NCBI GenBank assembly: GCA_902386555.1 | Contig: CABMJJ010000009.1 | Location: 213,680-277,679, forward strand | Length of the DNA stretch: 64,000 nucleotides | Source of the DNA: Candidatus Bilamarchaeum dharawalense | GTDB taxonomy: Archaea; Micrarchaeota; Micrarchaeia; Anstonellales; Bilamarchaeaceae | Direction: 5' to 3' | Shown here: positions 14,528-49,888 of the stretch, piece by piece | Position numbering within the stretch: the first letter of the stretch is position 1 | Layout of the letters: each line of letters starts with the position of its first letter | Program-made: the position numbers and the translations under genes | The notes under the pieces: generated by a model | Database searches by the model: none | Told to the model about the DNA's origin: nothing | What the model saw: the letters and a program-made list of their open reading frames with translations, nothing else

Positions 14528-14701
14528 GGGCCTGTAGCTCAGCTTTGTTTTGCTAATTTTTGCTTCGCAAAAATGCAAAACCTGGAGTAACTTGGTAGAG
14601 CGACGGACTCTTACTTTTGTAAGGTGGAAAGCCAGTTTTGGCTCTACCTTTTACTAAAAGGTGGAATCCGTGTGTCGAGAGTTCAAATCTCTCCAGGCCC
14701 G
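14528..14701 (+). tRNA. tRNA-Lys(CUU) with two insertions: D-loop (about 14543..14590) and canonical 37/38 (about 14614..14665)
   Basis: GGGCCTG/CAGGCCC acceptor; GCTC..GAGC D-stem interrupted by 48 nt; ACGGA CTCTTA[52 nt]A TCCGT anticodon arm; GAGAG TTCAAAT CTCTC T-arm. Confidence 0.8.
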
Positions 14702-14774
14702 TTTTTGTTAAATTAAGGAACCTACGGTTCCTTGGACTTCCATTTTACGTAATATCTAAAGGAGGTGTGGAACC

Positions 14775-15329
14775 TTGGTTCCGCAAATGAGGATAATTGC
14801 GATTTCAGGATCGCCACGAAGCGGTAACTGCGAACGGTTAGTTAAAGAAGCTGCAGAAGGAGCCAGATCTGAAGGTGCGGAAGTAGAAATTTTTTTATTA
14901 AGAAATTTAAAATTCGCTGGTTGTTGTGGCCGGGACCAGTGCTATCATGATGGAATCTGTTTAGTTAAAGATGAGGTCACACCAGTACTTAAAAAAATAC
15001 AGAAATGCGATGGACTAATTATAGCATCACCAAATTATTTCAATAATGTTTCTGGCCTAATGAAAAATTTCATGGACCGAACCAACCCATATTGTAAAGA
15101 TAAAAAGTGGAAAGGAAAAAAAGCAGCTATAATGGTTGTTGGTGGTGCGACAAAAAGATCAGCCATACGATGCTCCAGGACAATCAATGACTTTTTATGG
15201 ATACATGGAATTGAACTGGTCGGCTCCAGGTCTTTTCTAGCTGAAGGACCAAGAGATGCAGAACAAAATAAAGATTATTTAAAGAAAGCAAGACTGCTTG
15301 GAAAGAACCTTGCAATGGCAAAAAACTAG
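14775..15329 (+). CDS. NADPH-dependent FMN reductase / iron-sulfur flavoprotein-like
   Basis: IAISGSPRSGNCERLV...CCGRDQCYHDGICLVKDEV...ASPNYFNNVSGLMKNFMDR. TTG 14775 or ATG 14787 start; SD GGAGGTG at 14761. Confidence 0.8.
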   Translation: MVPQMRIIAISGSPRSGNCERLVKEAAEGARSEGAEVEIFLLRNLKFAGCCGRDQCYHDGICLVKDEVTPVLKKIQKCDGLIIASPNYFNNVSGLMKNFMDRTNPYCKDKKWKGKKAAIMVVGGATKRSAIRCSRTINDFLWIHGIELVGSRSFLAEGPRDAEQNKDYLKKARLLGKNLAMAKN

Positions 15330-17304: not shown

Positions 17305-17468
17305 GCCGAGGTAGCTCAGTCGGCTAGAGTGCTCGACTCATAGGTAAAATCCGATGAGTGATGAGGGTTCGCCCGATGATATTACCACTCTACCAAACTC
17401 GCGGGGTGTGGGGTATTCCCACAAACTGAGAGATCGAGAGGCCGGGGATTCGAATTCCCCCCTCGGCA
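17305..17468 (+). tRNA. Elongator tRNA-Met(CAU) with a 90-nt 37/38 intron (17343..17432)
   Basis: GCCGAGG/CCTCGGC; CTCGA CTCATA[intron]A TCGAG. BHB: central helix CTCA/TGAG, bulges TA^G and AG^A. Confidence 0.88.
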
Positions 17469-26339: not shown

Positions 26340-26475
26340 TTAACCCACCTCCATATGTTATAATATATGGTAAAAAGAGTATTTAAACATATGTATCAAT
26401 AAATTTGAGAGACTAGAAAATAACGGTTGGTTTGAACGACTATCGTTCAAAGTCCGCAATTTACAAAATAAAAAT

Positions 26476-26591
26476 AGCGGGGGGTAGATTTGAACTACCG
26501 GTCCCTGGGTTATGAGCTTCACCCCTGACATTCTTTAAAAAAATTCGGAATGCCAAGTCCAGTGGGAACTCCAAGCTTCCCTACCCCGCTT
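26476..26591 (-). tRNA. Initiator tRNA-Met(CAU) with 41-nt noncanonical intron at 30/31 (26519..26559)
   Basis: AGCGGGG/CCCCGCT; after removing the intron the anticodon arm is CTGGG CTCATAA CCCAG with the initiator GGG:CCC signature; BHB CACT[GG^A]...GGTG[AA^G]. Confidence 0.9.
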
Positions 26592-49736: not shown

Positions 49737-49888
49737 TGGACTTGAGGGGACTCGCACCCCTGGCCTCCTGAATGCGAATCAGGCGCTCTGCTTCCAGCTT
49801 TTAGGAATTACTTCCTAAAAGATATTTCTCTAGTTTGACATTTTTCGCGAAGCGAAAAATTAACAAAACCAAACTGAGCTACAAGCCC
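49737..49888 (-). tRNA. tRNA-Ala(CGC) with a D-loop insertion of about 76 nt (about 49798..49873)
   Basis: GGGCTTG/CAAGTCC with G3:U70; CCTGA TTCGCAT TCAGG; T-loop TGCGAGT; D-stem GCTC/GAGC separated by 87 nt. Confidence 0.82.

Follow-up and report, generated by a model that had tools for sequence, protein, structure and literature searches.

Related hairpin-forming inserts interrupt the D-loops of two tRNA genes, tRNA-Lys(CTT) and tRNA-Ala(CGC), in a stretch of 64,000 nucleotides from Candidatus Bilamarchaeum dharawalense (contig CABMJJ010000009.1, positions 213,680 to 277,679 of the forward strand; the whole of this stretch is referred to below as the window). The explanation that we favour, with fair confidence, is that these inserts are introns of the bulge-helix-bulge (BHB) type, members of a family of small, non-coding hairpins dispersed through the genome that behave as a non-autonomous mobile element with a preference for tRNA genes. 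Such an element would insert into loops (at position 15/16 of the D-loop, in the anticodon loop or in the T-loop) or next to the ends of RNA genes, with the base of the hairpin at the junction. Within a tRNA, the D-stem strand would pair with the 3' end of the intron, and a broad-specificity epsilon-2 endonuclease would, together with a ligase, excise the element; insertion would be tolerated because the element is removed by splicing. The host is represented by a metagenome-assembled genome (MAG) of the Micrarchaeota, 1.27 Mb in size and 88% complete, and the glycyl-tRNA synthetase (GlyRS) encoded in the window matches Candidatus Micrarchaeota genomes with a best identity of 80%. The genome-wide results rest on 1,272,886 of its 1,273,724 bases.

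Homologous inserts in the D-loops of tRNA-Lys(CTT) and tRNA-Ala(CGC)

The tRNA-Lys(CTT) gene (window 14528-14701, plus strand) carries two introns, one of 48 nucleotides (nt) in the D-loop and one of 52 nt in the anticodon loop. Its first exon (14528-14542, 15 nt) comprises the acceptor strand, the D-stem 5' strand GCTC and the residues A14 and G15, and ends in GCTCAG. The D-loop intron follows at 14543-14590 (plus strand), between positions 15 and 16, with exactly the sequence quoted in the preliminary description. It consists of a hairpin element named P1, of the form TTTGTTTTGCTAATTTTT..AAAAATGCAAAAC, which reads here GTTTTGC TA ATTTTTGC-TTC-GCAAAAAT GCAAAAC ... GAGT AA. The GAGT at 14585-14588 (plus strand) is complementary to the D-stem GCTC at 14537-14540, and the two may form the putative central helix of a relaxed BHB. 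This pairing is present in the minimum free energy fold, and the energies in the Lys arm are nearly equal whether the D-stem 5' strand pairs with the intron (-17.2 kcal/mol) or with the exon (-16.9 kcal/mol). With the insert removed, the exons form normal acceptor, D, anticodon and T arms, and the 7-bp acceptor stem, the T arm and the D stem all match.

The tRNA-Ala(CGC) gene lies on the minus strand (49888-49737). Its insert begins after the GCTCAG that closes exon 1 (49874-49888, minus strand), as in Lys, with a P1-homologous hairpin element at 49873-49825 (minus strand). About 28 nt containing a second hairpin, CTTTTAGGAA-GTAA-TTCCTAAAAG (49797-49824, minus strand; recognised from sequence and fold), precede the resumed D-loop and the 3' exon (49737-49796, minus strand; about TGGAAGCA GAGC ... 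discriminator A). The related insert that had been described at the same site in Ala is thus confirmed for the 5' site, the only one clearly common to both genes, while the insert in Ala is longer than described and has an ambiguous 3' splice site.

To assess the homology of the two inserts, a covariance model (R3) was trained exclusively on six inserts from the D-loops of G004, a species of the same genus, namely those in Lys(TTT), Thr(CGT), Thr(TGT), Asn, Ile and Met. Across the whole genome of 1.27 Mb this model ranked the Lys insert first (41 bits, E 1.6e-5) and the Ala insert fourth (32.8 bits, E 0.0011). Further matches, the later ones weak, were an intergenic site (C9:412513), the 3' flanks of tRNA-Gln(TTG) and of the signal recognition particle (SRP) RNA gene, and inserts in the D-loops of Ile(GAT) and Arg(CCT). 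The insert family therefore includes six tRNAs in G004 and, in this genome, at least two and probably four. The claim that one insert is shared by tRNAs of different specificity thus holds with a model from outside the species. The exact core pattern of the inserts occurs twice in the genome, in the Lys and Ala genes, and the reversed control gave no occurrence. Run without introns, ARAGORN misses both genes, as does Rfam at its gathering score. Group I and group II introns, like any other known RNA family, were considered and rejected, as Rfam gave no match to them; the scan of the window returns just two tRNAs, and the inserts measure 48-77 nt.

In the 15/16 class of introns, the D-stem 5' strand (positions 10-13) complements the intron end that precedes the 2-nt bulge, and the pairs seen are GCTC/GAGC, GCTC/GAGT, GTCG/CGAC, GCGA/TCGC, GCGC/GTGC and ACTC/GAGT. 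A perfect 4-bp match between the D-stem 5' strand and the intron 3' end was found in 33 of 54 D-loop introns versus 19.3 with permuted D-stems (0/2000 permutations), and for D-stems other than GCTC in 17 of 23, against 5.9 when a foreign D-stem was used (0/2000), figures that are approximate since the permutations ignore the relatedness of the introns. The D-stem strand and the intron 3' end covary across isotypes. The BHB-like GCTC/GAGT junction suggested earlier for Lys is supported by this pairing, which over the 54 introns exceeded every permutation. Of a possible BHB or relaxed BHB at the exon-intron junctions, the part with statistical support is the 4-bp helix, which in Lys could form as GCTC/GAGT. 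The pairing counts from alignment A1 were excluded as evidence because the finder itself required a paired stem. A second class of introns at 17/18 shows TCAG/CTGA by inspection (e.g., at loci L123 and L071).

Placement and turnover of the hairpin elements

The other element, P2, forms a hairpin in which a variable outer stem encloses CTTTTTAGGAAAAAG; a tail, CAAAAACTGGTTGCTAA, comes next, and P1-like sequence often stands after this tail. A finder for this hairpin matched the genome 46 times and block-shuffled sequence not once; four of the matches (C1:70220, C8:6886, C8:6891 and C9:285339) were judged spurious. With the model R1, 54 P2 matches were obtained, 32 of them internal to tRNAs, 9 near RNA gene ends and 13 at other sites outside genes. 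The tRNA bodies that hold the 32 copies, in D, anticodon and T loops, make up 0.55% of the genome. Coding sequence contains none, except for one copy (counted among the 13) at the start of a probably misassigned open reading frame. In eight of the nine flanking copies the base of the hairpin lies 0-2 nt away from the terminus of the mature RNA, which the hairpin invariably faces, and this terminus is a 3' end in six cases (His, Gly, Pro, Ser, Arg and SRP) and a 5' end in two; the Leu(TAG) gene in this set, at a contig end, is uncertain. Counted by hand, the tRNA-internal P2 copies are oriented with the tRNA in 19 cases and against it in 13, and composites of the F..R type are always hairpin-out at both ends. 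The 3' end of the SRP RNA is adjoined by a P2 with a P1 directly after it. An intron in the SRP RNA was rejected, as the full-length Rfam SRP match stops where the element starts, which places the element at the 3' end. In the genome G002, P1 adjoins the 3' ends of tRNA-Gly, Leu and Trp; P1 matches in G009 and G015 (E near 0.01, beside another RNA gene) were left out of the counts. The elements are short, non-coding, multi-copy and dispersed and have hairpin ends, all traits of miniature inverted-repeat transposable elements (MITEs). The spreading intron family proposed in the preliminary description is supported as regards spread between tRNA specificities, but the family also occurs outside tRNAs.

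As a separate observation, in 34 of 40 P2 copies the hairpin arm holds as many T residues as the CAAAAAC tail downstream of it holds A residues (r 0.89, 0/5000 permutations). Equal runs, seen for example in the copy at window 14620-14665 (minus strand), could reflect a triplex, strand exchange or inherited subfamilies.

The occupancy of the same gene changes quickly between relatives. The syntenic tRNA-Lys(CTT) downstream of GlyRS was compared in eleven species, and its D-arm differs almost from one species to the next: it is empty in two, holds P1 at 15/16 in B. dharawalense and P2 or a P2 composite at 15/16 in two, and has unrelated inserts at 17/18 in three and in the 3' side of the D-stem in three. 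Sister species differ, and the insert states do not track the GlyRS tree. Close relatives, to which the preliminary description had looked for a check on the homology of the inserts, thus have different inserts or none at this gene, which indicates fast turnover. Similarly, tRNA-Met carries P1 in G004 and none in three other species. One composite, identical at 103 of 115 positions, is common to the anticodon-loop intron of tRNA-Asp and the T-loop intron of tRNA-Pro(GGG), so that one element occupies different loops of different tRNAs. Matches to R1 occur in 16 of 17 congeneric genomes, with 1 to 59 copies among the matches listed; elsewhere among 99 genomes they were found in a second genus (27 and 23 copies) and in G063, and otherwise nearly nowhere. 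The 20 best R1 matches from 18 genomes, placed by an automatic parse plus by-eye reading of two, lie inside tRNAs or apparently so in 17 cases and adjoin them within 2 nt in 2. In G063, from a different family within the order, a hairpin resembling P2 (L205) adjoins the 3' end of an intronless tRNA-Arg; placement at tRNA ends therefore extends beyond the genus.

Proposed intron removal and competing explanations

In tRNA scans that permitted introns in any of three loops (D, anticodon and T), D-loop introns were present in about 17 of the 44 tRNA genes found, and many genes contained two or three introns. The sole Trp, Asp, Phe and Lys(CTT) genes found all bear introns, and therefore the cell must remove them. 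In several genes two or three loops, the T-loop among them, are interrupted by introns (Gly(CCC), C4:29184-29455; Arg(GCG), C7:39907-40198; Pro(GGG), C7:88472-88725; Trp, C2:4016-4191), so annotation tools that do not allow for such introns miss or mislabel them. The genome encodes a splicing endonuclease of 391 amino acids of the epsilon-2 type (E 3e-131 to ARMAN-2 4fz2), in which the Y236/H251/K282 triad and the loop residue K161 are kept (alignment read by eye; numbering of PMC6379350). Enzymes of this type have broad specificity (PMC6379350), and the question raised earlier about the breadth of the host enzyme is answered accordingly. Beside it a second EndA-like protein of 166 amino acids is encoded (L155 7775-8275, on contig C11). 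Proteins of this second kind, of about 170 amino acids and kin to the M. jannaschii alpha subunit, occur in nearly every congeneric genome, with homologues of the gene in most of the 17.

In the remainder of the tRNA-Lys gene, exon 2 (14591-14613, plus strand, 23 nt, CTTGGTAGAGC...CTCTTA) supplies the remaining D-loop, the D-stem 3' strand and the anticodon CTT, and is followed by the anticodon-loop intron at 37/38 (14614-14665, plus strand, 52 nt), which has homologous introns in relatives, and by exon 3 (14666-14701, plus strand, 36 nt). Inside this anticodon-loop intron, which the preliminary description had not noted, lies a reverse-oriented P2 (14620-14665, minus strand; 47.0 bits with R1, of whose training set this copy was part). 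Short palindromes of the type GGAACC..GGTTCC follow the gene at 14716-14736 and 14770-14784; similar ones flank many genes of the genome and are apparently another repeated hairpin. Elsewhere in the window, a tRNA-Met (17305-17468, plus strand) contains an anticodon-loop intron of 90 nt, the inner portion of which (GATGAGTKATGAG ... RATGATAT) is kept in three congeneric species and is C/D-box-like, although the intron gave no match in Rfam. A probable initiator tRNA-Met (26475-26590, minus strand; AGCGGGG..., CTCATAA) carries a non-canonical intron within the anticodon stem.

We infer that the inserts are spliced out and that they have moved as mobile elements, and for mobility the case is now stronger than in the preliminary description. 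Several points weigh against the favoured explanation. The neglected relatedness of the introns bears on the pairing statistics, the 3' junction of the Ala insert is ambiguous, and its pairing with the D-stem 5' strand extends to just 3 bp. By inspection no target-site duplication is evident at the tRNA sites; a CTT repeat occurs at Lys only and is absent from the G004 copies. No Y1 transposase or reverse transcriptase was found in the host genome, where other transposase classes were not searched. An IS200/IS605-type Y1 transposase or a reverse transcriptase was rejected as the driver, being absent here and, in the genus, present without tracking copy number. Finally, the hairpins at the 3' ends of RNAs may have been kept by selection for processing or termination and need not be insertions.

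The main rival is spread at the RNA level, in which excised intron RNA, circular or linear, would be inserted into RNA loops or ends by the endonuclease and ligase, through reverse splicing or mis-ligation, and a DNA copy would then be recombined into the genome. The siting of copies in RNA loops and 0-2 nt from RNA gene ends, including the P2 at the SRP RNA 3' end, and the lack of evident target duplications agree with such a route. Yet the genome is without reverse transcriptase, the presence of this enzyme in the genus is unrelated to copy number, and copies also stand at tRNA 5' ends and in plain intergenic DNA, so that we regard it as unlikely. Inherited introns might also have been moved by gene conversion between tRNA genes that share exons, without any mobile element, since the exons around 15/16 (TAGCTCAG..GG) are alike in many tRNAs and the Lys and Arg anticodon introns resemble each other. 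The same element is found, however, in different loops (Asp anticodon, Pro T-loop), at RNA gene ends and in intergenic DNA, none of which offers exon homology; as a general explanation gene conversion is improbable, but it could still account for some same-site copies.

It is even harder to credit that the hairpins do not move and owe their positions at tRNAs to selection for a function as RNA signals (terminators, guides or processing elements). Their strict hairpin, the match of T-run and A-run and their siting at RNA gene 3' ends would suit such a role, but presence, position and orientation vary between close species for the same gene, and copies in D, anticodon and T loops cannot terminate those genes. 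That tRNA-Lys(CTT) and tRNA-Ala(CGC) are pseudogenes disrupted by insertions can practically be dismissed. Other isoacceptors are indeed present (Lys TTT, Ala TGC and GGC), but all exon stems are intact, no intronless duplicate of either gene was found in the 88% complete MAG, and inserts are so widespread among the tRNAs, with the sole Trp, Asp and Phe genes found among the carriers, that their removal is obligatory.

Relation to known tRNA introns and mobile elements

The gain of tRNA introns in archaea is an old open question, and similar introns across tRNAs have been on record since 2010, with no mechanism to explain them. The intron described here is a dispersed repeat with copies outside tRNAs, a recognisable end, preferred targets and fast turnover between close species; thus insertion, target choice and tolerance through splicing become directly testable. 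In such genomes, standard tRNA annotation overlooks a large share of the tRNA set. Intron-rich tRNAs are known from Asgard archaea (PMC11291895), and D-loop BHB introns from archaea, with broad epsilon-2 enzymes in ARMAN (PMC6379350, PMC12397907). A search of the openly accessible literature on Micrarchaeota tRNA introns and archaeal introner-like elements did not find the P1/P2 family.

The closest precedent is provided by the transposed tRNA introns of Thermoproteales, which are alike across tRNA specificities and occupy canonical and non-canonical sites (Fujishima et al. 2010, as related in the reviews PMC4033280 and PMC4090602). As far as these accounts go, both systems have similar introns across tRNA specificities, at canonical and non-canonical sites and with many per genome. 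The Thermoproteales introns are confined to tRNAs in the reviews' description, whereas P1 and P2 are also present outside tRNAs, where some adjoin the ends of RNA genes; they possess a defined terminal hairpin and reside in a genus of Micrarchaeota. D-loop introns had been characterised at first as mainly a Thermoproteales trait; they do exist in archaea as stated, but the present host is not Thermoproteales-like. The introns cut by the epsilon-2 enzymes of ARMAN-1/2 (Fujishima 2011; Hirata 2012; PMC6379350, PMC12397907) share with ours the phylum, the endonuclease type and the non-canonical positions, including the D-arm, but no repeat family joining introns with intergenic copies is described in PMC6379350 and PMC12397907. 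The tRNA-Thr intron of Caldiarchaeum (Sugahara 2012, PMC3293823) likewise ties intron gain to mobile DNA; there, plasmid-type integration with an integrase was proposed for one locus, whereas here the intron itself is repeated at dozens of loci.

Eukaryotic MITEs and introner elements differ from the family in that the introns here are protein-spliced tRNA introns, with no target duplication seen and no partner transposase found. Like P1 and P2, they are short and non-coding, have inverted or hairpin ends and become introns on insertion. On balance we lean towards regarding the family as an archaeal counterpart of eukaryotic introners, that is, a hairpin-ended non-autonomous element which would target the loops and ends of tRNA genes and would itself be a functional tRNA intron at every insertion site within a gene, so that intron gain would amount to the transposition of a genomic repeat.
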